Shown here piece by piece: positions 797 through 64,000 of a DNA stretch of 64,000 nucleotides. This DNA comes from Polytrichum commune (lineage: Eukaryota; Streptophyta; Polytrichopsida; Polytrichales; Polytrichaceae): contig OX485808.1 of NCBI GenBank assembly GCA_950295325.1, positions 8,806,501 through 8,870,500 of the forward strand. Reading direction: 5' to 3'. The position numbers and the translations under genes are program-made. The notes below the pieces were generated by a model. It was not told where the DNA came from. It saw nothing but the letters and a program-made list of their open reading frames with translations, and ran no database searches. Position 1 is the stretch's first letter. The number at the start of each line of letters is the position of its first letter.

Positions 797-1554
797 CTTC
801 CATGTGTGTTCACTATTGAGTGCGGAATGGTTAATAGTATCAAAGACAACTTCAAAACACTATACACTCGTGAATGTTGGAACACACAGTGAACTTCCCC
901 AAGATAACATTGTACTCCCATGTACTTGCGGTACTCAAAGATGCCATTGTAACCGTAAACTCAAACCTAACATACTCTACGTAATAGGCCACCCCTACAA
1001 CAACCCCCTACCAGTATCCCCCACCCCGTGACTCACCATATAATTTATAGAATTTACATATCGTAGGGACAAATTATTTGTAGAATCCCTCACCAGACTG
1101 ACTACAAAAATGGCTCATCAATAACAAAATTACAAAAAGATGGAAAATAACCCCCCTCATGGTAATTGTAGCTAGTGCAACAACAATCACACACATACCA
1201 TCAATGAATGAAATACTCAAAAACAAAATTAAAGATTCCAAGTACTACAATACAAAATACATTAAAACAAATTAACATAATTGCCACACAATATGCACAC
1301 TTTAAACTTATCCACAAAAGACAACTAGAAAATGGACAATTTGTTGCCAACCTCCATGACCCACCATAGAGCATCACACGGCTTACTAGATATGGGTTAT
1401 ATTTATTGGTTACTGACATAGTGTCTACTCCCTGAAAAGGGTGAAGTAATTGTACATCCAACGTCATTGCCCTTGGCCGTGACCCCAAATGTTTTATGAA
1501 CAACAAACACTCTATCCACTCTAGTCTTCGCCCCTTGGGACCAAAGTTCTTCTT

Positions 1555-33322: not shown

Positions 33323-34115
33323 AACTCACTCAAAAATTCTTCTGACTTCTTCCAGCCACATAAAAATTCGCGTCCTTCCTAGAAAAAATCAATTACATGA
33401 CAGCGTCACACACAAAACTCGAAGTGCCAAATCAAAAAAACAAGCTCCAGGATTGCTAGCTTCGAAATCAAATGGCAATATTGACACGGAAAGGAGGAAG
33501 CTCTGACAAGAAGAATCAGAAGAATATCTCCACGAAGACAGCACCAAATCGAGTGCACTAATCGTAAACACAACAAACACAAAATACTAACTCGCTCAAA
33601 CTTCTGCCGACTTCCAGGGACAAAAATTTGCGTTCTTGTCAAGAAAATTACGCCACGGCGCCACACACGAGTAGTAGTGGCGGATAATAATAAACAAGGC
33701 GGATAAGTTAGAAGCTTCGAATATAGCTAACTTGGAAATCAAATGCAATCGCCATGAAACGAACACGTAGGGAGCTCCGATGACAAGAAGGAGGAGGAGC
33801 GTCTGTTTAAGAATACTGCACCAAATCGAGTGTTAATCGTAAACACTACAAACACAAAACACGAACTCACTCAAACTTCTGCCGACTTCCGTAGACAAAA
33901 CTTTTGCGTGCTTGCTGGAGAAATTACGCCACGGTGCCACACACGAGTAGCAGTGGCGGATGATAAAAAGAAGGCGGATAAACTACAAGCTCCCAATATA
34001 GCTAGCTATGAAATCCAAATGCAATCGACACAGAACGGCCAGGAAGGGAGCTTCGATGACAAGAAGGAGGAGGAGCGTAAGTTTAAGAATACTATACCAA
34101 ATCGAGTGCGATTTG
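33323..34115. repeat. Three tandem units of about 266-275 bp upstream of callose synthase
   Basis: Units begin with AACTCACTCAAA or AACTCGCTCAAA at 33323, 33589 and 33864. They share CTTCTGCCGACTTCC, TTACGCCACGG, CCACACACGAGTAG, GGCGGATAA, AAATGCAATCG, GATGACAAGAAGGAGGAG and CCAAATCGAGTG. The third unit runs into the GC-rich block at 34100-34330. The 162-codon plus-strand ORF here (33830-34318) is an artefact of the repeat. Confidence 0.75.
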
Positions 34116-41146: not shown

Positions 41147-44100
41147 GGAGATTGAGTGAACATAGTGTTAGTTATTTAGAACATCTTTGGTCCCATCCTA
41201 AAGGGCGATGACTTCATATGTAAAACTATTGCACCCTTTCAGATTTTAGACACTACATTAGTAGTCGGTAACCAATTTTTATAATTAATATAATATAATA
41301 TAATATAAGTAGTAGTGTTGAGAAGTTAGACTTTAAGGGTGGGTTATGGGGTGTGTGGAAACTAGGTCAATGAGCTCCATGTTGGTTGGGAGTGAATGTT
41401 TAGTTCCATATTATCTTGTTCGGGTTTGATTTATGTTGAATTTGTTTGATTGGGTGTGGATGAAAATGACATGATGTTGCCATGGGAGTAGATGCATGAA
41501 ATATATTTATTAGCTAGCGGCCTATCCCAAAGCATTTGGTAGTTGAGCTAGAACACTGATGGTGTGTGCCACTATTTGAGTAATGCAATTTAGTTTGGTT
41601 TGGTTTTTTGTTTTAAATAATTATATATGATTCTGATATTTATTATTCTATTGTGTGTGGGGTGTGCCACAAGTGGCTTTCAAACTGTAGTTTGTCTAAG
41701 ACAAGTCTTGGAGATTTGCAACCAATTGTTAGTTTTCAAGTCTATGTTTGTGGACTAATACGGACTTACGAATGGCATAATTGTGCTAGGATAATGATTT
41801 TTTTGTCATATTTGAGGATATGTTTTCTACGTGCTCAATGGGGCCTTTGTGTGGTGTTTCAAGTATAGAGTGCCACCATTCTTTTTGGAAACAATGGGGG
41901 ATGGAGTGTGCATGTTCATATGGTTACCATTCTATAGCTTACTATGTGATCAAGTTTACAATCTCGTTTGGCTAGTTTGACAACTTGTTTGTTTCCATCA
42001 ATGTTAGCGTGGGCTCTTATTTTATGGAGTGTGGTGATCTGTGTGCATGATTGTAGCATATGGACCATGCATTCTAGGATTATTTTGTCATGGTGGCTAT
42101 TGTGTAAGGTGGGGTGATTGATTTGGGTATTTAGCAAGTATAAGAGTATCTCGGGGGGTTCACTGGCGAAAATCGTAGAACAACGTTAGCAATGTTAAAC
42201 ATTTGTTGTATGTATTCATTGGTTCCAATAGGTGTATTACTATGGTGTATGCAAGTACTGTGTGTGGCACACTTTTCTATTTTAGGTTTAGTTCTAAGTT
42301 CTAGTTGGGATTGTTGGTTCTTTGTACGTAATGGTATTGGCTTTAAAGTGTGTAATGAGGTGTATGTCGGGGAATGGTCCATCATGGGAGTTGGAGTTGT
42401 GGTACCAAATTTTGTCTAGTGCTACCAAGATGGTAATAGATTCTGGGTCATTTTTGGTTGCCCAATGAAGAGTTCGTTGTGTCTCCTTCTACACGTTTGG
42501 GTTGGCATATCCAATCCTGTGCCATTCTTGGCGGAGGTTGTTCCTAGTGATCCAAATACGACATCTATTGAGAAATTATGAATTAAAATGATTGAATAGG
42601 GAGGAACATGTCATCGGCAATGAGAAGTATGAATGGGTTATTTGGAAGGAGTTGAAGAAAAAAATAAAGAAAGAAAAAATGTCAAAGTCTTTAACCTTGA
42701 CATGTGATGTGCATTCAACACCTCCCTCTCATGTTTGTATGAGCATGAGTGGGGGTGGCTTAGTGCCTTTTTTCATAGGTGGACCATGTGGTTAGTGTCA
42801 AGGCTACGTGTTCTATGTTTGTTTCGGGTTTTAGTGTTAGTAAGTGTGTTTAATCAAGTGGGATCGGGGTTGTTTATTTTCTAATTTCTGTTTGTTTGGG
42901 ATTATATGTTATTGAAACTCAATAGGACTAGAAATGAGATTACAGAAGCATATTACACAAACATAAAGGCATATGAACAATGTTTGGAGTGAGACAATCT
43001 CATGCTCTCCTTGATTTGCCTTTTATTGCTTTTCTTCTTTACCTTGGTTCATGTAAACAATATGGGATAACTCTTATCCTTCTCGGACCATCATTGTGGC
43101 TTTATTCTAGCCTTATTGTTTCTCATGCCTCTTCCATTACATTTTTATTGACTACGAGCAATCTAATATGTGTGTTAGGTACCTTATAGCAATTGGGGAG
43201 AGCTAGTTTATGGGGTTTGGAGCTAGGGATTTGTAGGTCTTGGAGGAGTTTAACAATTGTTGTATGTATAGATCCCCTTTTCCCTACTGTGATTATAATG
43301 GGTGAGAGTACAATCCATCCTTGTTGGGATAGGAGTGGGTGGAGAATGGTGTATTTATCAAGTTTTCGGTTGGTGGCTTCTATGGGGAATCTATCATCAT
43401 AATAAGTGTATTCAAGTTATTTAGAAGGAGTTGACAATATGCTCAAGTGTTGTCTGCGGAAGTGTGTATTGTGTGAATTTGAGAGGGTCATTCTTTGCAA
43501 TGCGGTATTTATATCTTTTGTACAACCATATGAATTCCATTTGAAATGATTGAGTAGGGGGGTCCAAGTTATGGGGTTTATTTAATGATAAGTGGTATTG
43601 CGTCCATAACCAATGTAATCTTGTTTTGGGGATGGTGATGCAATGTTTGTTGTTGGTTATTTATTTTATTTATAATATAATATAATATAATAAATTTTGT
43701 AGAGGTGGGCCACATCATGTTGTGTTTGGATGGTGTTTTTGTTATATGCAATATCATTTTCTGGGTTGCATTTGCTAGTGAAGATGGTGCATTGGGGGAT
43801 GGTTTGTGGTGGTAGAATGTATCTAGTGTCTTCCACTTGTTCTTGGTTAAACTAGGTGTGGATTATATTTGTGAATGTTGGTGCTACTTTCAGGTGTAGT
43901 ATTGTGTGAGTAGCAAGATGTTGTGGTTAATGGTGTTTCAATCATTCCATGGAAATAATGTGCTTTGTGGGAGCCATTTGTTGTAAATTGTGTTATTGGG
44001 TACTGTCCATTAGCATAAGTATGATGTAAGTTTTTTGGTTATTTTGTATTATTTTGTATATTTATTGGGGCAGTCATTGAGTATGATGCGGATTGGGAAG

Positions 44101-45750
44101 TGTATGGGGTCTTTGAGAATGTTGGGGGGTGGCTTAAAGTGTTCCGGGTGTGGTGGAGGTTGGAGGGGGTTGGAGTGCTCATTTGGTCTCGGGGTTAGTG
44201 TGGTTCTCTCTCTCTCTCTCTCTGGTGTATTGTGTATTGTGCATGGATAATTGCATTGATCGTGACATGATGGTTCGCAGAAGAGGAATTTGCCATATTT
44301 TAGTGCAATTTTTCCTACTTTGGTTAGCTAAGTTAAATAGTGAGTTTGAGAGCTTGTGCATAAAGTCACTCAAGTTTTCTTAATTCTTAGATTATCATAC
44401 TCAAAATTTGAGGGACTTTACAAACAACTCTATTGGGTGTTATCTTCCAACATAAAACAACTAATTTTGTCCTAAAAAATTTCCAATTGTCGTTCATATA
44501 TTTGTTGGGATCTGCACTAAAAATCTAACCTGGAAGCTACACCTTTCACACTTACTACTATAAAGGGTTGAAAGTTAAGGTTGGTGAGAAAAAACTATGG
44601 TCCGCTATGATTTATGTGTGAATCATAAAATGATAAATACTAATAACTATTAAATTTGATATTTGATAGAATATTGATATCATATTTTCCAAACGTCAAT
44701 AATCCATGCTATGTAAAGCATGATTTTATATTCCTAGTTTTGAACATATGATAATGTGAGCTCAAAAATGGCCTGGGTTGAAAAAAAATCATATTGACCA
44801 AAATTATAGTGCACTAAAATCATGGTTGTGAAAGGTGTACATTCCCTCAATAGTAAAAAATGAAAGCACCTTCTAAGGCATTTCCTTCAAGAGGTGTAGT
44901 TTTCTAATATGTTTCTTTGTTTCACACAAAACACAAGCCACATCATTTTTAGGTTTAGCGGAGCCGAATTATAATTATATTTGGTATTGTAGAGTGGATT
45001 CAATTAAATCAAATATGAAAGTATTATGATGAAAGTTGGCAACTGTTCTTAGAGTTGTGTTCTACAAGATAAGGTCGCGAACATTTTGACTCATCAACTT
45101 TAGAAGAAGCATACAAACAACCTAGTTGAGGCTCATTTGGAACACTTAGCATGTCAAGTAAACAACACCGAACAAACACTAAAATTCAATGAGACCACAA
45201 TACAACTTAGGGTTTGGAACTAAACCCATGGTTTCATATGCTTTACTTATACTCTAATAAACATATATACATGAAGTTTGTATAATTATTGTTAAAATAC
45301 TCTTGTTGAACTTGTAAACTAGTATATTATATATTTATTGGAAAAAAACTACACTAAAACATCTGATTTAATGTGGCCTGCAGTATTCATCGTCGACCCA
45401 TGTTAGTTTTTCAACTGATGCATACTGATACAATGGCGTCTCAAAAGCATGATCTCAAGACATTGTTTAGGCCAGGCAAAGTTGAGACATGTCAAATCCA
45501 TCGAACAGGAAAATCGTGTCGAAGTCATTCACCTTTTCTGTACAATTCATACTTTTGTTGAGGATCATTTGTTCGATCACAATTACGAATCATGAAGGAA
45601 GCATGACTGTTTCTCCTCCACATTCTACTGACGTAAGGTAGATGTGTGTTATTCGAGTAATTTCCTCATTGTGCTCACTGCTTGTAGGATACGAAACATA
45701 CAAAATAGTGCGAGATTTTAGCAAATTCACATCGTGCCCATAGCCATTAG
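41147..45750. other. Intergenic stretch with microsatellites, no gene recognised
   Basis: Only short ORFs occur. Simple repeats are (ATAAT)n at about 41281-41306 and again at about 43672-43693, and (CT)n at about 44203-44222. I see no splice-consistent coding series or RNA gene. Confidence 0.45.
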
Positions 45751-49557: not shown

Positions 49558-52500
49558 CTAATTAAGTTCACATGGATGCTTTAGGAATTGGGTGGACCAC
49601 AATATAAAGTTGCCTACTGCTTGTCCCATTTTCGTGATCGGTGGGTCGTCCAAATCTACGCTGCAATAGAGAAGGTACTCGTTGAGTTTGCTCTTTTGTA
49701 CTTCCACTGAGACACACCCTTCTGGAATTGTGACCCCATGCAACTTGGACCCTTCCAGGTTAACCACTTTTCCAATACGAACCACCTCTTCTTCTTTCCC
49801 ATCTGCAACACCCATGATCTCAACAATATCGTCCTTGTAAAATTTCGAGGTCGATGAGCCTTCATCCTTTTGTCCGCTTATCTGCAATAACACAAACACT
49901 TGTAAATAAAGGAATGAGGACTGCCATTAAGATTATTCATGCACTTTAAGAAAACACCAAATGTGCAGTGCGTTGGATCCCCTTACCTTTGATGTGTTTT
50001 TCTCCTGGTGAGCCCCCATTTTGTCTTCTTTCCTATCTGGGGCCGAGACAACATGAATGCTTGATTGCTTCTGTTTTGCAGCTTGTCCATGTGTTTTCCT
50101 CTGCTCAACAACTGGGGATCCCTTCGAAGACCGGTTTTGCTCCCCCTCGTCCAAGGACCCCTTCTCCTTTCTCCTCCGCTCGCTGGTGGTACCCTTCTCA
50201 GTCCGGGGTATTTTCTGCTCACCCCCCATGATTTCCAACTTTTGACTCTTAGTGATCCTCCTTTTCTTCTCACCAGGTGGACGAGGCTTCGGGAGGGACG
50301 TCAAATCAATGTCGTCCACATCTTCCTTCCCTTTGCTGACTTCTTCCATCTGCATGCCCTCTCTTCCATCAGAGATTTCTTTGGAATCCTTAGATCAATC
50401 ATAGTCAGTCATGCAGTGACAGTCAATGTTATAGGGAATTTTCTGACTAAAGCTAGTTACAAATAGTCTAGAACGTGACTAATGTTAGTCATAGTCTCCA
50501 TAAACTTCACTGGCACTAGTCATAAGCAACTCGGAACTTTGAGGTTCATAGGCAACGAACACAAAAACACCTAAACTTAAACTGTGATTAACCATTGATT
50601 ATGTGTCTCAGACCTCTGCAACATACCTTTTCACTACAGACAACGTCGTCAATTTTCAGCTCATTCTTCATTTTCTCCCCTCCACTGTCATTTCCACGTT
50701 CAGGGACAATATTATCTTTGTCCACGTTCTCTGCTGAGCTGCTTGCAGCTCCACCTTCCACCTGTACATTTGGAGGAGGTACTGCGTCTGCATGTGGAAT
50801 CTTCAAGGCAGTTAATATCAACTTCAGGCTCTCCTCTAACCCATCCATGCGTATGTGTATGTCTCTATCCGGCACCATTTTCGAGTGCATGTTGGACGGT
50901 GAGCTGCGATCAAATCTGCTTCCTCCTGGTGACATAGAGGAGACATGGCTACCACCTGCCTTCCTAGTTACAACCTCTTTTTCCTTTCGCATGGACAAGT
51001 CAAATTCTTGCCGTGTTAGAGTCCTCTCCAATTCAATGGCCTGCACCAACATAGTCTTCCCTTGCAAAGTGGATCATTGAATCCCATCATAAAAGATTAA
51101 GGTAACATTGACTGCCTCAAACAAAGGTTGATGGTCCAAAACTTACCAGATTGTGTGCAAGCCCATCTGAGTCCCGAGCTGAGATCGATGGCCTCTTCAA
51201 CTGTGCCCGGTTCTCTTTTAGCTTCTCCGCCTCCTTTACCTTCCTCTCCTCCACAATCAGCTTTGAGAGGCTCACCCAATGGTCTTGACGAATGTGCTTA
51301 GGCTTTGTCCTCCCAGCTAATAATGCCTTCTTCAGCTGATATCTCTTAGTCTTCAACTGGGTTTTCAACAACGAGTGGAATGCTTCCTCGGTGACTCGCC
51401 CAAGTCCCCCCTCGTAATCAAAGGTGTTGTCAACACGTTGCTTGATGGAGAGCAACATTGTTGTGTTGTGCATGTGGTAGTTATCGACGCTGAAGTCCAC
51501 CTCTTGTGCGTGGCCCCGCAGGCATGTCATCCACAACGGCCTGTTTTGTCCGTAGGGATGGCCCTTCATGTCAACCTCCACTGTGTATCTCTTCTTGCCA
51601 TGGTGTTTTCTTTCCCGAACTCCCAATTGCTGCTGCAGCTCCACCTTTCGTCTGTGACTGCGTAGCTCAGAGTCCTCCTTCCGCATCACCGTGTCTTGCT
51701 CGAGCCTTTCACTTCCATGTCCCTGCCCATGTTGCGCACTGCCTCCAGAGTATTGTGCATGCGCGTGTTGTCCACCTTGTCGTCGACGTTGTGAACTCAA
51801 CAACTCCAACTTCTGCAACTCCAATTTCTTGATCTCCAGTCAAGTGACATGGCTGCATCCACGTGGGCATCACCTTCTGAATCGGGAGCGCGATCATCAA
51901 TATTTGATGATGGAATTCCCACATCGTCGACTGGAGGTTCCTCTTCGTAGAAATCATGCTCCATTGAATTGCATGGCCATAATGCTTGCGACATCTTAAC
52001 GGCAGGTGTACTCGTGGGGCGTGGTGCAGATTGGGTGATGCGCTTTTGAACCCTGAACTCAGGGGTGGATTGGGAAGGATGTTTCTTACAATCCACTGTG
52101 CTGGTTCTGACGTCTTCAGCTCCTGGACATGACATAAACATTGAATTTTGGGGAGTAGTCAGATTTTGGGGAGATGCTGATTACAACTAGTCATAGTTAT
52201 GGCAGTTGTGACTATAGGTAGTTATATGTTTGGTATACATGACTACAACTAGTCATACTGCAGGCAGATGTGACTATATGTAGTCAGATTTTTTGGTATA
52301 TATGACTACAACTAGTCATACTGCAGGCAGATGTGACTACAGAGATTAAGGTTTGGTATTGCATGAAACTACAACTCACATTGCCTACAGAAACAATGTA
52401 TCCCAATATGTGCTTTGATCAGTGTTACCTTTCCCTTAACTCGTAGAGGCAGTGTGGCTGGCTCTTCCCCCTCCTCTGACTCCGTATCCTCGTCGTTTTC

Positions 52501-53651: not shown

Positions 53652-54036
53652 ATCACTGCTAGAGAATGATGTCCAAATCAACAAATAACCAACTATTTTT
53701 TGTTGAACTGTGTACGTCAATGACCATTTCAACAAAATTCTAATATTTTGTCAATTTGAACAAAATGAGTGTTCTTTTTTCTGTTAGATTACGTACTGTA
53801 CCTTTTCTTCGACAAATTAATGGGCTTTTAGATTTGGATATGCTGATATGACGATATTCAAAGGAAATAATTATTTTATTTTATTTTTTGTATTCACAAA
53901 AATGTATAAAGTTCTAACCCTGCACCACTTGCGCTGATGTTTTTCATCCATCCATTTTTTAATTTTTCCCTAAGGTTTAATAACATTTGTATGGGAAGGA
54001 TCATCAAAATATGAGAATGTGAACTTCTGAAAAATT

Positions 54037-54442
54037 ACATAAATAGCGGTTTTTGCAAAAAAACATACTCAGAGGTAAAATGTTTTTACATAAATAGCGG
54101 TTTTTGCAAAAAACATACTCAGAGGTAAATTTTTTTTACATAAATAGCGGTTTTTGCAAAAAATATACTCAGAGGTAAAATATTTTTACATAAATAGCGG
54201 TTTTTGCAAAAAACATACTCAGAGGTAAAATGTTTTTACATAAATAGCGGTTTTTGCAAAAAAACATACTCAGAGGTATAATGTTTTTACATAAATAGCG
54301 GTTTTTGCAAAAAAAACATACTCAAAGGTAAAATGTTTTTACATAAATAGCGGTTTTTGCAAAAAACATACTCAAAGGTATAATGTTTTTACATAAATAG
54401 TGGTTTTTGCAAAAAACATACTCAGAGGTAAAACAAACTCCA
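54037..54442. repeat. Minisatellite, eight units of about 50-52 bp
   Basis: Units begin ACATAAATAGCGGTTTTTGC at 54037, 54088, 54138, 54188, 54238, 54289, 54341 and 54391, and end ATACTCAGAGGTAAAATG. A further half unit with AATAGCGGTTTTTAG follows near 54450. AATAGCGGTTTTT is a word I associate with plant CACTA subterminal repeats, so this may be the remains of another element. Confidence 0.85.
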
Positions 54443-57861: not shown

Positions 57862-58135
57862 CTTTTCTCATAATTCTTAGAGCTCATATGAATATCATTT
57901 ACATCAACAAAGTGAAAATATTTGTGCTCATGAAGTGGTCATATAGGTCTCTCCAATCATGTTCACTATTGAGCCTAGAATATCTATCATATTTTGAACA
58001 TGTAGTCCAATCTCTTTTAAACACGCATCTTTTTGAATATTCGTTCTTGAAGACACCCAACCACATACCACAAAAAATTAGGTGGCCAATTAAGAAAAGT
58101 AACTTAATTAGGCATGTCCATCTTAGGAGGCCAAC
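57862..58135. repeat. Dispersed foldback-family copy
   Basis: One of the most complete single-arm copies: GAGCTCATATGAATATCATT, AACAAAGTGAAAATATTTG, GTGGTCATATAGGTCTC, TTCACTATTGAGCCTAGAAT, TAGTCCAATCTCTTTTAAAC, ACCACATACCACAAAAAATT and AGTAACTTAATTAGG in order. Non-coding. Confidence 0.55.
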
Positions 58136-58428
58136 TTGTTTGGCCATGGTCATTGGCTACTACAAGAATCTACTATTTTAGGTGTGTTGGACAAAACCCA
58201 ACCAATCATATCCCAACCATGGCACTCAAACCTAATATGAGATACACCCACTACTTAGTCCCTAAATTTGACCCCTTTGAAAATATGAATTAGAGATTTA
58301 GAAATTCAAAGTCTCACATGTAAACATTCTTGTTTAAACATTTACATTTGTTTTTAACATGAACATATTTCATCAAGTCATCCAAAGTTGGCATAACCTT
58401 ATTTTTAGTAGTTGTCGGTTTGTGAAAT

Positions 58429-58648
58429 TGTTAGAGGCCCCAAAGATACTAACTTAAACGAGGAAGAATGAAGAGCTGCCGAGAGCTTCGTATTTTCTGG
58501 AGAGGTGAGTGACTGAGGAGTTAGCCGCTGTGGAATGATGTGTGTGCTGCCTGGAGCTGGACTTGCAGTCACCCCGCACACATTAGAGAAACAGTAAGGT
58601 CAGCGTGTTTGTAGAGGTGCTTAATGTGTTGGGAGGGGTACATATGCA
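58429..58648 (+). other. Possible solo-length LTR (about 220 bp)
   Basis: The segment starts TGTTAGAGGCCCC and ends ACATATGCA, giving the TG..CA limits of an LTR, and is followed four bases later by a primer-binding-site-like sequence. The right-hand LTR would lie beyond the window, so the assignment cannot be tested here. It is more GC-rich than its left flank. Confidence 0.35.
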
Positions 58649-58652
58649 TGCT

Positions 58653-58662
58653 TGGTATCAGA
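58653..58662 (+). other. Possible primer-binding site for initiator Met-tRNA
   Basis: TGGTATCAGA matches the first ten bases of the usual plant retrotransposon primer-binding site (TGGTATCAGAGC). The next two bases do not match. The position just after a TG..CA-bounded segment supports the reading weakly. Confidence 0.35.
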
Positions 58663-59086
58663 TCTAAAGATTGAAGTATGTGAGAGTGAGAGTTGAGATT
58701 TCAAAAATTAGAGCATTCTGATGAGTTGGGGCCCTGATTGGTTACATATTAGAAAACTTCATCTCCCTGCTTGTAGACTTTAGATCTGAATCGAAGCACC
58801 ACATCGTGTGAGGAAACGAAGCACCAAGGACACAAACACACTGATACTCACGGTCGCAGCACTGATCCAGGATCACACTCCTGACAATAGATAGAACGCT
58901 ATACAGAAGGAGCCATAGGCTTCTTCTCCTTGTCATACACATTGCAATAACATTCTCCCTACTCCCTCTATCTAGCACAGGTACATGGACAACAGATCCA
59001 ACTAGATCGAGTTTACACCCATCTACACCGAATCTGCACCCAATGTGCACGCCAACCTGCACCGAATCTATCAACACCACGCTGGA

Positions 59087-59314
59087 ATGAAGAAGAGGAT
59101 CGAACCGTCACCGAAAGAAAGCCACACCGAAACAACAGAGAGGATCGAACTGTCACCGAAATCGAAAGAGAGCCACACCGAAACGGAGGCGAGGACCGAG
59201 CCCACAGAGGGGACCTGCTACACCGAAGGGGAGGAGATCCAGCCTGCAACAAGATTAGACTTCACCGAAAAGGAGGGGAACCGGGAGCTGGAGATCGCGA
59301 AATATGAAGAGTAA
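59087..59314 (+). CDS. Small ORF rich in (H/Y/F)TE motifs, function unknown
   Basis: It runs from ATG 59087 to TAA 59312-59314, 75 residues, very rich in Glu, Thr, Ser and Lys (SHTETTERIE, SHTETEARTE, GTCYTEGEE). It is built on the same CACCGAA heptamer that fills the next 500 bases. The following ORF (59324-59842) is in the same frame after this single stop, so the two may be one disrupted frame or two exons. I know no family like it. Confidence 0.35.
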   Translation: MKKRIEPSPKESHTETTERIELSPKSKESHTETEARTEPTEGTCYTEGEEIQPATRLDFTEKEGNRELEIAKYEE

Positions 59315-59323
59315 AAATCAAAA

Positions 59324-59842
59324 GTGCCAGCGATCCACAACGAAGGCACCACTACACCGAAACCAATAGCGAGCTACACCGAATCAATCCCATCGCCAGA
59401 AAGCACACCGAAATCTGTAGCAGTCTACACCGAATCAATCCCATTGCCGGAAAACACACCGAATTCTGTAGCAGTCTACACCGAATCAATCCCAGCGCCG
59501 AAAAACACACCGACCTCTGTGGCAGTCTACACCGAATCACCGAACTCTGTGGCAGTCTACACCGAATCGCCGAACTCTGTGGCAATCTACACCGAATCAA
59601 TCCCATCGCCGAAAAACACACCGAACTCTGTGGCAGACTACACCGAATCAATCCCAGCGCCGAAAAACACACCGAACTCTGTGGCAGTCTACACCGAATC
59701 AATCCCAGCGCCGAAAAACACACCGAACTCTGTGGCAGTCTACACCGAATCAATCCCAGCGCCGAAAGCCGAAACCCAGCAATCTGCAGGTACAATAAAG
59801 CCACAGAGATCTACAGCAACCGAGGAGAACAACACCAAATAA
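59324..59842 (+). CDS. Repeat-encoded ORF (17-residue units), function unknown
   Basis: Open for 172 codons from GTG 59324 to TAA 59840-59842. It contains no ATG, so it would need splicing, readthrough or a non-ATG start. It consists of 17-residue units of the form VYTESIPAPKNTPNSVA, with two shortened 10-residue units. The array is also open in frame +1, which continues into the long ORF at 59875-64000, and on the minus strand (59804-59352). Which frame, if any, is translated cannot be decided from sequence. Confidence 0.35.
   Translation: MPAIHNEGTTTPKPIASYTESIPSPESTPKSVAVYTESIPLPENTPNSVAVYTESIPAPKNTPTSVAVYTESPNSVAVYTESPNSVAIYTESIPSPKNTPNSVADYTESIPAPKNTPNSVAVYTESIPAPKNTPNSVAVYTESIPAPKAETQQSAGTIKPQRSTATEENNTK
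59369..59775. repeat. 51-bp tandem repeat array rich in CACCGAA
   Basis: Six 51-bp units (CTACACCGAATCAATCCC .. GCCGAAAAACACACCGAACT .. CTGTGGCA) and two consecutive 30-bp shortened units near 59520-59580. The heptamer CACCGAA extends beyond the array, from about 59028 to 59900, in otherwise different sequence. Confidence 0.85.
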
Positions 59843-59874
59843 GAGGACACACAACTGCTAAGAACCCAAACTCG

Positions 59875-62800
59875 ATGGCAATGCCGAAAACCTCACACCG
59901 AAATGGGAGCACATCAGGCGGGAGCCTAATCCCCATGGCCCTGGCAAAAGTTTTCAGGGCAGAAGAAGATGTGATGGAGATAGACTCCCCTGCCCAGAGT
60001 CTCAAACAACTGTTGGTAGAGAAGGCCAAAATGCCGCCCGAAGGGGCAGCGAGCGGGAAGCGAAGTCGGGACCCAACAGTAACGCCTCCACACTTACCGT
60101 CACCACCGAAAGTGACCCAAGCCACGGCACCCACTTCCAAACAGCCACTTAAACTTTGGCTAGGGTTCGATGTTATGGAGAAACTTGCCATGGACCAGGG
60201 ATTAGATGAGTTATACATGGACAAGACCATCGATGACAAAGTTACAAGAGGCATCCCCCGCAAAGAAGCTGAAGAGCTAGACAGTGTAAGCATCTCCTAC
60301 CCTAGAGTGCCACAAATATTGTACCCTAGTAATAGGAGTGATGGATTCCCGGGGCAACATCTTAACCTCACTCAACTACCGTCTGAGATAGAAATTGACC
60401 CTATCTCATGCATGTCTCTAGATTTTCAAATTGCCATTCATTTTCAGCTCCCCAACAACCCCCTCTTCCATAATCATGTGAAAAAGCTTGTCAAAGAAAG
60501 GCTAAATGACATGCATATCCCATTAGGCACTAAACTTATAGAGCCCATCTCAATTCTATGCATGAGTATCAAGAGGGGTGGGATTAAGGGAGTTTGGGCT
60601 GGGATAGTCAAACTCCACCTTCTCCACCCCCAAGTTGATGGAGTAGCACTACTCACGGGTCTTAGACCCTTTGTCCTCCACCTTGAGCCCCACTCAAACG
60701 TTGGAAGTCTTGGCAAGGTATGCAAGTCATATCACTCCATTGCTAGAAGCAACAACCTCTCCATCAAAATCTCAAATGACACATTGATTGGTATACCATC
60801 TCATGCTCTTTTTCTTGATATCCTAGAAAATAGCTTTAGGAGAGGCCATAATTTCGAGATTGTAGAGGTACAAAAGAGTACCACTAACAACCATGCTTAC
60901 ATTGTTGCTCCTACCCCCCACCAAGCCCAAAAAATCCAAAAACTCCAAGTATCTACACATCACCAAATCCTTGAAGGTCAAGTGACAAAAGGTCCCTCTC
61001 TTACTTTGGAGCAAAAGGCAAAGAAAGAGGCTCTTACCCTAACCTTCTACAACCTCCCCATTTTGATGAATATTAATGATACCTCCCTTGAAATTTGCAA
61101 AGTATTAGGAACCAAAAATGTTGTATCCATTTGGTTCCACAAGCAAGATGGCTTGAGACACAATGGTAGTGCAAATGTGGAATGCCTTAACCCCTTTGTG
61201 TATAGGAAGTTTGTAGGGAAAGAAGCAAAAATTGGAGCCTACCATGTGGAAATTACCCCACACCGCCAAAGCCTTGACGGTAATGACAAACCCACCAAAG
61301 AATTACTAATCAAATTTGGTTTTGAAGATATTAATACGTGTTTGGTAAACACAATTGAAGCCATCCAAAACCAAACCCAAGAGGAGACTAGTGCAACAAA
61401 GGAAGACGCTTTCATCGGCATGAAGGAGGCAATTGAAGAAGGCAACAAGAAACTCAAACTTGAACTTCACAAAGACATGAAGGACTTAAAGGATGATATA
61501 GTAAGAGAGGCACACATCTATGCGGATGAAATAAACGATAAATTAAAAAAGCAAATGTTGGACATCCAAAGCACTTTGACCTTGGCACTTACCGGAATGC
61601 AACCTCATGCTAAAAGACCAACCACATGTGGAATGACCACAAACCGCCAAGTAAAAAAAAAGTATTTACAACAATACTACCTCATATACGTAGACGTATA
61701 TAGATATAGTAGTATACAAAAAATATGTCATAGTATCATACATAGTACTATACATCGTAATTTTTCTTATATAAAATACAAACATACCCCACATCCATAC
61801 CTATACGGTATGTTCCAAAAAATCACTCATCCAATACACAAACTAAAATACAAAACCCACCCATACAACAACTTCCATACAAAATACAACCTCAGTATAA
61901 AATACAGTAGTCATCTAAATCGGAAAATACCCCGACCTCATCCAAAAAACAATTATCATCTAAGACATAGTCTTCATCCAAGGCACCGTCTTCTCCCAAA
62001 AAACAATCTTCATCCGAAATACGGAAGGTACCCAAAACACATACTCCACCCAAAAAACAAACTTCATCCAAAACATGGACTCCACCCAAAACACAAATTA
62101 CATTCAAAACACATATCTCATCCAAAAGATAGCTCACACCCAAAACAAGAAATCCATCCTAACTTAAGGACACATCCACAAAATAAACTCCATCCTAAAC
62201 ACAACTCCCATCCAAACCCCAAACTTTGTCCCCACTCAAATCCTAACTCCCACTCAAAATACAAACTCTACCCAAAAAATAAAACGGCCTCGGCCTACCG
62301 GCCTCGCCACATAACTAAGTGCAAACACCACTTCACAAACAATTGGAAACCTAACTCAATACCAAATCAAATACCTAAAAACTATGCAAAATCACACCCC
62401 TTACCCATACAACAAGAAAACATAATGCCCGCCCTACCCAACATTTTCTCTACAACAAAACTTGCACTCATTAAATATCAAAAACTAAATAAGAAAAAAC
62501 CAAAAATACCTCACTTATATGGATACTACTTCATTACATCAAGTACATCAAGTATGTATCAAAAATCTACACATAAACCAAATTACACTAATCACCCATA
62601 CAATAACAACTACCCAAAACACACTTTCCGAACAAAATACAACACCCACCCAAATTATACCTCTCATCCAAAACACAAAATACAAAGGCCTCACCCAAAA
62701 TACAGATATTACCCTCATCCTAAATCCAAACCGCAACCAAAACAAAAACCACACCCAAAACTAAATCCCCCCCTCACCCCTAAACATTCAAGTAACATTA

Positions 62801-64000
62801 CACACACCCGGAAACACGAAAAGTACCCAAAACACTTACTGCATCCAACAGACTACATTCATCCAAGACACGGACCTCATCCAAAGCACACACTTTACTC
62901 AAAACACATATCCCATCCAAAACATAATCCACACCATAAACAAAGAACCTATCCTAACCTAAAGACATACCAACAAAATAAATTACATCCTAAACACAAA
63001 CCCCATCCAAAACCCATACCTTACCCCCACTCACAACCCAACCCCCACTCAAAGTACAAACAATACTCAACAAACAAAATGACCTCGGCCTACCGACCGC
63101 GCCACAAAACTAATCGAAAATACCACCTCACTAACTGGGAACCTACCCCAATAACAAATCAAATACCTAATTTATACTATGCGAACTCACACCCCTTAAC
63201 CAAACAACAAGAAAACAGAATACCCGCCCTACACCACATTTCTTCTACAACAAAACTAGCACTCATTAAATATCAAAAACCCAAAATAATTAACCTATAT
63301 AGATACTATCCCTCTACCTCAAGTACATCAAATATAAATAAACCAAATTACACTAACCACCCACATAACAACAACCACCCAAAACATACTCCCCGAACAA
63401 AATACACCACACATCCAAACTATACCTCTCACCCAAAACACAAAATACATTGGCTTCACTCACAATATAGGTACTTCCCAAGAAACGAACTTCATCCTTT
63501 ATCCAAACCGCATAGTCTACACCCAAAACAAAAACCACACCCAAAACTAAATCCCCCCCTCACAACTAAACAATCAAGTAACATTACACACAACCCGAAA
63601 TACGGAAAGTACCCAAAACATATACCAAATCCAACGAACTACTTCCATCCAAGACACGAATTTCATCCAAAGTACATAAGTTACTCAAAACGCATATCTC
63701 ATTCAAAGCATAACCCACACCATGAACAAGGAACCTATCCTAATCTAAAGATATACCCACAAAATAAATTACATCCTAAACACAAACCCCACCCAAAACC
63801 CATACTTTACCCCCACTCACAACCCAACCCCCACTTAAAATACAAACAATACCCAACAAACAAAATGGCCTCGGCCTACCGGCCTCGCCACAAAACTAAC
63901 CGCAAATACCACCTCACTAATTGGAAACCTACCTTAATGACAAATCAAATACCTATATACTACGCGAACTCACACTCCCCACCCAAACAACAAGAAAACA
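59875..64000 (+). CDS. Very long ORF, no stop within the window; unknown protein (partial)
   Basis: I read every codon in this frame. It is open from 59308 (after TGA 59305-59307), with first ATG at 59875, and no stop up to base 64000, so at least 1,375 residues and a missing 3' end. Residues 1-90 are Pro-, Ser- and Lys-rich (KRSRDP looks like a nuclear signal). Residues about 90-470 look globular. Within them, about 385-470 (ALTLTFYNLPILMNINDTSL .. GSANVECLNPFVYRKFVGKE .. YHVEITPHRQSLDG) could be an RRM-like beta-alpha-beta-beta-alpha-beta fold. Residues about 502-575 are a charged coiled coil (KEAIEEGNKKLKLELHKDMK). From about 636 onward it is His-, Pro-, Lys- and Tyr-rich with hexads such as HPKHKL. 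A retroelement gag or ORF1-type protein is the likeliest class because of the possible LTR and binding site upstream, but no zinc knuckle, protease or reverse transcriptase is seen. The function is not known to me. Confidence 0.6.
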   Translation, partial: MAMPKTSHRNGSTSGGSLIPMALAKVFRAEEDVMEIDSPAQSLKQLLVEKAKMPPEGAASGKRSRDPTVTPPHLPSPPKVTQATAPTSKQPLKLWLGFDVMEKLAMDQGLDELYMDKTIDDKVTRGIPRKEAEELDSVSISYPRVPQILYPSNRSDGFPGQHLNLTQLPSEIEIDPISCMSLDFQIAIHFQLPNNPLFHNHVKKLVKERLNDMHIPLGTKLIEPISILCMSIKRGGIKGVWAGIVKLHLLHPQVDGVALLTGLRPFVLHLEPHSNVGSLGKVCKSYHSIARSNNLSIKISNDTLIGIPSHALFLDILENSFRRGHNFEIVEVQKSTTNNHAYIVAPTPHQAQKIQKLQVSTHHQILEGQVTKGPSLTLEQKAKKEALTLTFYNLPILMNINDTSLEICKVLGTKNVVSIWFHKQDGLRHNGSANVECLNPFVYRKFVGKEAKIGAYHVEITPHRQSLDGNDKPTKELLIKFGFEDINTCLVNTIEAIQNQTQEETSATKEDAFIGMKEAIEEGNKKLKLELHKDMKDLKDDIVREAHIYADEINDKLKKQMLDIQSTLTLALTGMQPHAKRPTTCGMTTNRQVKKKYLQQYYLIYVDVYRYSSIQKICHSIIHSTIHRNFSYIKYKHTPHPYLYGMFQKITHPIHKLKYKTHPYNNFHTKYNLSIKYSSHLNRKIPRPHPKNNYHLRHSLHPRHRLLPKNNLHPKYGRYPKHILHPKNKLHPKHGLHPKHKLHSKHISHPKDSSHPKQEIHPNLRTHPQNKLHPKHNSHPNPKLCPHSNPNSHSKYKLYPKNKTASAYRPRHITKCKHHFTNNWKPNSIPNQIPKNYAKSHPLPIQQENIMPALPNIFSTTKLALIKYQKLNKKKPKIPHLYGYYFITSSTSSMYQKSTHKPNYTNHPYNNNYPKHTFRTKYNTHPNYTSHPKHKIQRPHPKYRYYPHPKSKPQPKQKPHPKLNPPLTPKHSSNITHTRKHEKYPKHLLHPTDYIHPRHGPHPKHTLYSKHISHPKHNPHHKQRTYPNLKTYQQNKLHPKHKPHPKPIPYPHSQPNPHSKYKQYSTNKMTSAYRPRHKTNRKYHLTNWEPTPITNQIPNLYYANSHPLTKQQENRIPALHHISSTTKLALIKYQKPKIINLYRYYPSTSSTSNINKPNYTNHPHNNNHPKHTPRTKYTTHPNYTSHPKHKIHWLHSQYRYFPRNELHPLSKPHSLHPKQKPHPKLNPPLTTKQSSNITHNPKYGKYPKHIPNPTNYFHPRHEFHPKYISYSKRISHSKHNPHHEQGTYPNLKIYPQNKLHPKHKPHPKPILYPHSQPNPHLKYKQYPTNKMASAYRPRHKTNRKYHLTNWKPTLMTNQIPIYYANSHSPPKQQEN
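61780..64000. repeat. Large in-frame tandem repeat (795- and 786-bp periods) with inner 18-bp hexads
   Basis: The marker CCTCGGCCTACCGRCC recurs at 62286, 63081 and 63867, giving distances of 795 and 786 bases, both multiples of three. Flanking words recur in step (CAATATGCCCGCC-like segment, AAACTTGCACTCATTAAATA, CCGAACAAAATAC, CCCAAAACTAAATCCCCCCC). Inside each unit are many CATCCAAAACACAAA-type 18-bp units. The first copy is partial or diverged at its left side, and the third is cut by the window edge. Confidence 0.85.

Follow-up and report, generated by a model that had tools for sequence, protein, structure and literature searches.

The question raised by the right-hand end of a 64,000-nucleotide stretch of the Polytrichum commune (Streptophyta; Polytrichopsida) genome (contig OX485808.1, hereafter C6, positions 8806501-8870500; the whole stretch is referred to below as the window) is what kind of protein, if any, is encoded by a plus-strand frame that runs into the edge without a stop and whose second half is of low complexity. 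Based on searches across the 408-Mb host genome, we propose that this frame is a composite. In a damaged copy of a long interspersed element (LINE), the first open reading frame (ORF1) appears to have been joined by accident to the leader of the second (ORF2), a leader that in the rest of the family would be split off from the downstream enzyme by a 2A peptide. We give this explanation as a whole a probability of about 85%.

A preliminary description, made from the letters of the window, had reported that frame +1 is open from 59308 to the edge, with 1,375 codons inside the window after the first ATG (59875), and re-measurement returned the same values. That description had also suggested extending the contig to the right and shuffling the sequence. 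The extension finds a stop at window-equivalent position 64072, 72 bases beyond the edge; the open frame spans 59308-64071, amounting to 1,588 codons from stop to stop and 1,399 from ATG to stop. Chance can be rejected as its cause, because in each of three stretches tested none of 1,000 dinucleotide shuffles reached the observed length, the longest shuffled frames being 234, 226, and 190 codons. Over 59875-64000, stops number 0, 65, and 96 in the three plus frames, against 0, 24, and 50 in the low-complexity part (61663-64000), in which 58 TAA, 13 TAG, and 3 TGA triplets are found in any frame. The earlier remark that TAA is frequent out of frame and missing in frame stands, as does the one that minus-strand frames nearby reach at most some 160 codons (at most 160 amino acids in a listing of ORFs of at least 150 amino acids).

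The frame lies within an element of about 13.9 kb (C6:8864962-8878816) that begins at window position 58462, the window containing the 5' half of this one damaged copy (the window copy). Its 5' end was set at the point from which the nearest relatives are homologous: in a DNA search of the genome with window positions 57900-60400, the alignments of the three closest copies start at 563, 563, and 565 of the query. The predicted 5' untranslated region (UTR; 58462-59874, plus strand) includes 7.5 copies of a 51-bp CACCGAA-rich unit recovered by a tandem repeat search (59374-59767, plus strand), and within these repeats the closest copy differs from the window copy by a 60-bp indel near 59510. At the other end, 38 of 40 other rows (40 scored of 1,434 candidates) stop at query positions 1004-1029, and the window copy, the one copy read at this point, terminates in a TTATTATTATTATTA run, i.e., a tail of the (ATT)n type. 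At the single copy examined for a target-site duplication, the sole candidate was a match of 8 bases lying about 45 bases away from the 5' boundary, which is not convincing. Judged by its reverse transcriptase (RT), its endonuclease, and its scattered copies that share one 3' end, the element is evidently a LINE, that is, a retrotransposon without long terminal repeats (a non-LTR retrotransposon).

The composite nature of the frame emerges from comparing the window copy with its relatives. The closest copy is 98.2% identical to it over 7,784 bases, and between ORF1 and the fourth unit of the leader the two are separated by indels of 26, 1, and 4 bp, the second of these being an extra base in the window copy near the deletion. 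Alignment to this closest copy places the 26-bp deletion at 61600-61605 (plus strand), where the ORF1 stop has gone and the frame enters the ORF2 leader; the 4-bp insertion, just past the window edge, terminates the long frame. A comparison motif near the end of ORF1 could be found in 20 of 22 loci, namely, the window copy and 19 others. The 26 bp lost from the window copy are present in all 19 of these, in 18 of which ORF1 runs about 19 residues further to its own usual stop. The remaining one (L015) shows a separate 2-bp loss that shifts ORF1 toward the leader frame, with an intervening stop that blocks the fusion. The window copy is also damaged further downstream, with another frameshift before the 2A motif and, over the 1.9 kb that follow it, 21-32 stops in each frame. 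Because the 26 bp persist in 19/19 other copies and the usual ORF1 stop is used in 18/19, the long frame is best read, on this sequence comparison, as ORF1 and leader fused by accident in a damaged copy. The single gene of more than 1,375 codons that had been suggested is contradicted by the same two counts, and we reject one natural protein of 1,399 codons, as the deletion is specific to this copy and indels separate it from the closest one. Of the signs that had been named in advance as speaking against coding, two are in part present: a stop lies just beyond the edge, and the window copy has non-triplet indels (26, 1, and 4 bp). The vaguer suggestion of an undescribed retroelement or repeat protein proved apt on both sides, the element being a many-copy non-LTR retrotransposon and the second half of the frame a tandemly repeated ORF2 leader. 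For annotation, this is a caution that a long low-complexity frame within A/C-rich repeats may belong to a LINE leader rather than to a gene for a repeat protein.

ORF1 (59875-61605, plus strand) retains about 576 of some 595 native residues, the C-terminal ones having been lost through the deletion. Residues 1-577 recover 74 rows in the host genome, the other rows being 56-97% identical, and 72 of these rows do not extend beyond residue 577, the exceptions being the window copy and L015. Two rows of equal score (L018 and L022; C1:70179073 and C1:70168031) lie 11 kb apart on opposite strands and perhaps reflect an inverted duplication rather than two insertions. More distant versions of ORF1 accompany three other families with 2A (38% identity in L033, 29% in L034, and 39% in L037). 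Substitutions are highest at third codon positions in 8 of 9 pairs of copies, some of which share copies (the output order for ORF1 being third, first, and second position, with linker and post-2A counts in register). The earlier statement that no family could be recognized holds for the ORF1 sequence: a Pfam scan gave no family above the cut-off for either ORF1 or the leader, and a PDB sequence search with ORF1 gave no convincing match. It fails for the fold of ORF1 and for ORF2 beyond the window. An AlphaFold2 model of ORF1 built from 8 sequences has a mean predicted local distance difference test (pLDDT) of 45.5, with 369 of 577 residues under 50, and contains a fold resembling an RNA recognition motif (RRM) at residues ~388-465 (61036-61269, plus strand; local pLDDT, ~70-84). 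Foldseek against PDB yields 36 matches at an E of ≤0.001, most of them RRM proteins by title; the second RRM of TDP-43 (3d2w) aligns with a template modeling (TM) score by target of 0.80, a root mean square deviation of 2.3, and an E of 0.0014. In the modeled secondary structure, a long coiled-coil-like helix occupies the C terminus (residues 509-575; 61399-61599, plus strand). The model thus points to an ORF1 protein of the type with RRM and coiled coil known from LINEs.

The ORF2 leader (61606-64000 on the plus strand, continuing past the window to the 2A motif) is A/C rich, codes for a sequence rich in H, P, K, Y, N, and T, and is built with tandem repeats. A repeat search recovers three copies of a family that we term D2 at 61939-62238, 62734-63033, and 63520-63819 (all plus strand; spacings of 795 and 786; the third also by unit alignment). 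The window copy has four leader units in all, the fourth of which, past the edge, carries the 2A motif that the first three lack. Across relatives, the leader is ~280 to ~1,140 amino acids long, and in the six cases calculated it is basic, with isoelectric points of 10.2-10.8 and a net excess of K plus R over D plus E of +35 to +172. We measured leader stops in 19 of the 22 loci, including the window copy, the other 3 being without a strict 2A pattern match. In 5 of the 19, the leader has no stop in the 2A frame over 886-952 codons, with 40-45 and 57-59 stops in the other frames; these amount to about three independent cases, as L018 and L022, and likewise L020 and L021, are identical over 200 junction bases. 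A single stop is seen in 2 more copies (L011, over 1,136 codons, and L024), and 3 and 4 stops are seen in two others. In all five pairs of copies (some shared between pairs), new leader stops fall below expectation, with 3.7, 3.7, 3.1, 1.4, and 17.5 expected and 0, 0, 1, 0, and 5 seen. Third positions have no excess of substitutions in the leader in 8 of 9 pairs (a slight one in L011/L013) and lead in the post-2A part in 6 of 9. Because stops are fewer than expected and the third-position excess is missing, the leader evidently retains its frame and composition under almost no constraint on its amino acids.

Other families bear on how such leaders lengthen. In a different LINE family (L032:5956-9999), two full 2A motifs, spaced by 801 bases and each followed by a similar segment, share an open frame that begins after a single stop just ahead of the first motif; further leader in that frame lies on the other side of this stop. 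In L034, an NPGP site is followed by an NPGA site, and L033 has a decayed site followed by a full 2A; the diverged leader of the latter comprises three long open segments in one frame with at least three stops between them. In the family with frames of 2,625 codons, for which one 5' side was read (L037), only ~280 amino acids precede the 2A. These cases fit growth by tandem duplication of the segment surrounding the 2A with loss of the older sites, a direction that they suggest rather than prove.

The 2A motif of the window copy lies past the edge at window-equivalent 65027-65071 (plus strand; LDLLQCGDIELNPGP), with endonuclease and RT motifs beyond it. In relatives, a 2A-type motif (GDIELNPGP) stands in frame between leader and enzyme. 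A passage in PMC12846837 defines the 2A/StopGo core as (D/G/C/N)(V/I)ExNPGP, a pattern with which this in-frame motif between two coding parts agrees. Across the genome, the pattern has 261 matches with varied codons, and a reversed-pattern control has 0. Of the 54 2A motifs on contig C1, at least 26 are followed within 12 kb on the same strand by a PCIF1-like match (opposite-strand control, 0), the distance being 4.76-4.80 or 5.05-5.14 kb in 20 of the 26 cases. At least 22 of the 54 are likewise followed on the same strand, at repeated distances, by a match to a restriction-like endonuclease (RLE), with 0 on the opposite strand; these domain counts on C1 are lower bounds, since only the best candidates were scored. 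We infer that the 2A would split the leader from the enzyme.

The enzyme part consists, in order after the 2A, of an unnamed stretch of ~220 amino acids, an apurinic/apyrimidinic-like endonuclease (APE), the RT, a PCIF1-like domain, an RNase H, and a C-terminal RLE of the R2 type, with frames of 2,625 codons open through the C terminus in 3 of 147 rows. All 6 members scored match both Exo_endo_phos_2 (best, 5.2e-9) and Exo_endo_phos (best, 2.2e-7), and the RT matches RVT_1 at 1.7e-25. The RNase H after the RT matches RNase_H at 3.4e-6 (27.7 bits versus a cut-off of 25.8); in the window copy, this domain is interrupted by a stop. The C-terminal model has three fold matches in PDB at an E of ≤0.001, all of them R2 proteins, and is on this basis assigned to the R2-type RLEs. 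The PCIF1-like domain matches PCIF1_WW at 1.7e-9, above the Pfam cut-off, and genome-wide all 150 scored rows (of 697 candidates) are above it. It aligns to solved chains of the cap adenosine methyltransferase PCIF1/CAPAM with E values of 0.006 and 9e-5. What we take to be the catalytic motif of PCIF1, NPPF, is replaced in each of the three copies read, by HPHN in the window copy and L039 and by HPPN in L038, so that methyltransferase activity is doubtful. It is possible that the domain is a dead enzyme kept for binding. Among the open-access papers listed for this point, with key older ones outside the search, we found no PCIF1-like domain in any retrotransposon. Some PCIF1-like matches belong to open frames as long as 2,924 codons, a hint that there are more families with long intact frames.

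As to how ORF2 is started, inspection by eye shows the leader going on in the -1 frame, with an overlap of the ORF1 stop, in 14 of the 19 other copies and likewise in L037. A passage in PMC5972666 describes SART1 and other stop/start-coupled LINEs in which ORF2 similarly begins at the ORF1 stop, an arrangement that needs coupling or recoding. In contrast to SART1, which uses UAAUG, 3 of 20 copies here have ATG as the -1 codon overlapping the ORF1 stop, 4 have GTG, and 13 have TTG, and in L037 the ORF2 frame lacks an ATG close to the stop. Slippage at an A run near window position 61652 was considered and rejected, as the run is of varying length and, in most of the 20 copies, interrupted by other bases. 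Downstream of the stop, 3 copies show suggestive RNA structure (z scores of -2.2 to -3.8; 100 mononucleotide shuffles). We prefer termination-reinitiation over the ORF1 stop as the probable route, a process that PMC5972666 notes as observed for SART1 and proposed for LINE-1.

Taken together, these features suggest the following scheme. ORF1 would make an RNA-binding protein with RRM and coiled coil. Ribosomes would then pass into ORF2 where it overlaps the ORF1 stop, for the most part in the -1 frame, either remaining on the RNA or starting anew there, by frameshifting or reinitiation. They would traverse the basic, low-complexity leader and skip one peptide bond at the 2A, releasing the leader and leaving an enzyme that always starts with the proline of NPGP. 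Because the 2A would cut the leader off the enzyme, the leader would be free to lengthen by tandem duplication and to drift, provided that it acquires no stop or frameshift, and might serve as a translated spacer. More tentatively, and at somewhat less than even odds, we postulate that this group of plant LINEs uses 2A as an insulator, dispensing with a defined ORF2 AUG, giving the enzyme a uniform N terminus, and allowing duplication to extend the leader to ~1,140 amino acids, perhaps with a role in coating RNA.

Several observations weigh against parts of this scheme. Both the activity of the 2A and the translation of the leader are read from sequence, and the lack of a third-position excess in the leader is not what protein-level constraint would leave. 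In 10 of the 19 copies, the window copy included, the 2A frame of the leader holds 9-64 stops, which we tentatively put down to frameshifts. The junction is also variable: the leader follows in the +1 frame in three copies (L011, L018, and L022), L012 has it in frame beyond the stop, L015 reaches it through its own indel shift, and in L034 the two ORFs are about 200 bp apart in one frame. No canonical -1 slippery heptamer was found by eye at the overlap, and the RNA structure after the stop is absent from L037 (z score of +0.8), making it inconsistent across families. Among the enzymatic domains, the first-scored APE member is under both curated Pfam cut-offs, and a PDB profile search with the APE retrieves only exonuclease III, over 41 residues at an E of 0.004. 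The C-terminal model is of middling confidence (mean pLDDT, 59.6), a PDB sequence search with the C terminus gave nothing convincing and its sequence profile has 0 matches there, and its RLE motifs were recognized by eye.

Other explanations account for some of the same features. The low-complexity stretch might be a non-coding A/C-rich spacer, akin to an internal ribosome entry site or a satellite, kept open because its repeat periods are divisible by three. Indeed, the short period of 18 and the long spacings of 765, 780, 786, and 795 are all multiples of three, and the codon positions evolve about evenly. Against this, five copies are open over 886-952 codons with 40-59 stops in each other frame, new stops stay below expectation in every pair run, and the diverged L033 leader keeps its long open segments in one frame, albeit with at least three stops between them; further, a 2A works only when translated from upstream. 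We consider such a spacer unlikely. Only slightly less unlikely is that the 2A is a relic and that ORF2 is made as a single long fusion of leader and enzyme. Repeat units upstream without 2A and the NPGA at the second L034 site would be in keeping with this; the full core at 261 places, with varied codons and a repeated distance to enzyme domains, speaks against it.

The possibility that the 1,399-codon fusion is itself functional, as a newly gained polyprotein of ORF1 and leader, draws on its uninterrupted length, on the youth of a copy 98.2% identical to its closest relative, and on the independent 2-bp loss by which L015 moved ORF1 toward the leader frame. It is very improbable given that none of the 19 other copies has the 26-bp loss, that L015 runs into a stop at the junction, and that the window copy bears a frameshift before the 2A and 21-32 stops per frame after it. 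A host gene for a repeat protein with no tie to mobile elements could be entertained in view of the missing Pfam families for ORF1 and leader, and is the least credible of all: dozens of dispersed copies, a shared 3' end, and RT, endonucleases, and RNase H downstream led us to reject it. We accordingly retain the accidental fusion, in a damaged LINE copy, of ORF1 with a leader that 2A would normally release.

The affinities of the element lie with several known LINE groups. In PDB its RT scores best with R2 (82 bits versus 39 for human LINE-1), and the C-terminal model matches R2 proteins too. R2 elements have one ORF, are not known to carry an APE or an RNase H, and insert into 28S ribosomal DNA; unlike them, the element described here has two ORFs, an APE, and an RNase H. 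Other LINEs with 2A are reportedly of the APE type, going by the title of work from 2013 by Odon et al., and are said to include the further clades Ingi, Rex1, Crack, L2, and CR1. A passage in PMC4981915 places 2A in L1Tc of Trypanosoma cruzi and in LINEs of several animals, and the D(V/I)ExNPGP core within a LINE protein is common to these and to our element. In contrast to them, the 2A here comes after a leader of ~280-1,140 amino acids and is in some cases present in two copies, and an RLE is encoded as well. The closest likeness in layout is to Dualen/RandI of green algae: parts of PMC4640811 describe Dualen as encoding both APE and RLE and report RNase H in Dualen/RandI, and a table in PMC3747384 gives (ATT)n tails for green-algal RandI and only L1 and RTE for flowering plants. 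Our element shares with these the two endonucleases, the RNase H after the RT, an (ATT)n-type tail, and a host in the green lineage. Matches to SBP (16 rows, about 8 genes) and Radial_spoke (5 rows) in the host genome suggest a green plant with motile sperm, and hence a non-flowering one, as these families are markers of such plants; both gave 0 in 14 control genomes, which may be prokaryotes and so say little about lineage. Our element would differ from the algal set, as compared by layout description, in its non-flowering green plant host, separate RRM-bearing ORF1, 2A, expandable leader, and PCIF1-like domain. The features of the Dualen/RandI layout are present, and this candidate clade placement is one by layout rather than by RT tree.

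These comparisons suggest a new form of the known dual-endonuclease LINEs, and its proposed route to a second protein can be put to the test. That two endonucleases, RNase H, and a PCIF1-like domain occur together with a separate RRM protein is also relevant to the origin of APE-type LINEs from RLE-type ones. 2A peptides are in wide use for multi-gene expression, plants included, and a passage of the same 2026 survey reports no evidence that plant viruses naturally use them (PMC12846837). In the open-access literature, with key older papers outside the search, we found no 2A in Dualen/RandI LINEs or in a plant genome. If 2A does act as an insulator, then, as far as that literature goes, neither a plant genome nor a dual-endonuclease LINE would have been seen before to employ 2A naturally, and the element would also have a cap-methyltransferase-like domain. 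Matched 261 times in one plant genome, often at a fixed spacing from LINE enzyme domains, the motif would offer natural plant variants of 2A and a system for asking what a mobile element needs it for.

Elsewhere in the window, there are remains of related LINEs. A C-terminal RLE fragment lies at 831-1363 (plus strand), with pieces 44-50% identical (E of 4.7e-33), and fragments of a post-RT region with a PCIF1-like part and a weak RLE piece lie at 42306-44117 (minus strand), coinciding with a strong G skew at 41-44 kb. A 50-bp AT-rich unit forms a tandem array of 7.9 copies with 94% matches at 54035-54433, and a 276-bp unit present in 2.1 tandem copies at 33534-34108 overlaps a 162-amino-acid frame without a Pfam match. 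At 50588-51824, a GC-richer stretch has overlapping frames on both strands (159, 161, and 235 amino acids), also without Pfam matches.

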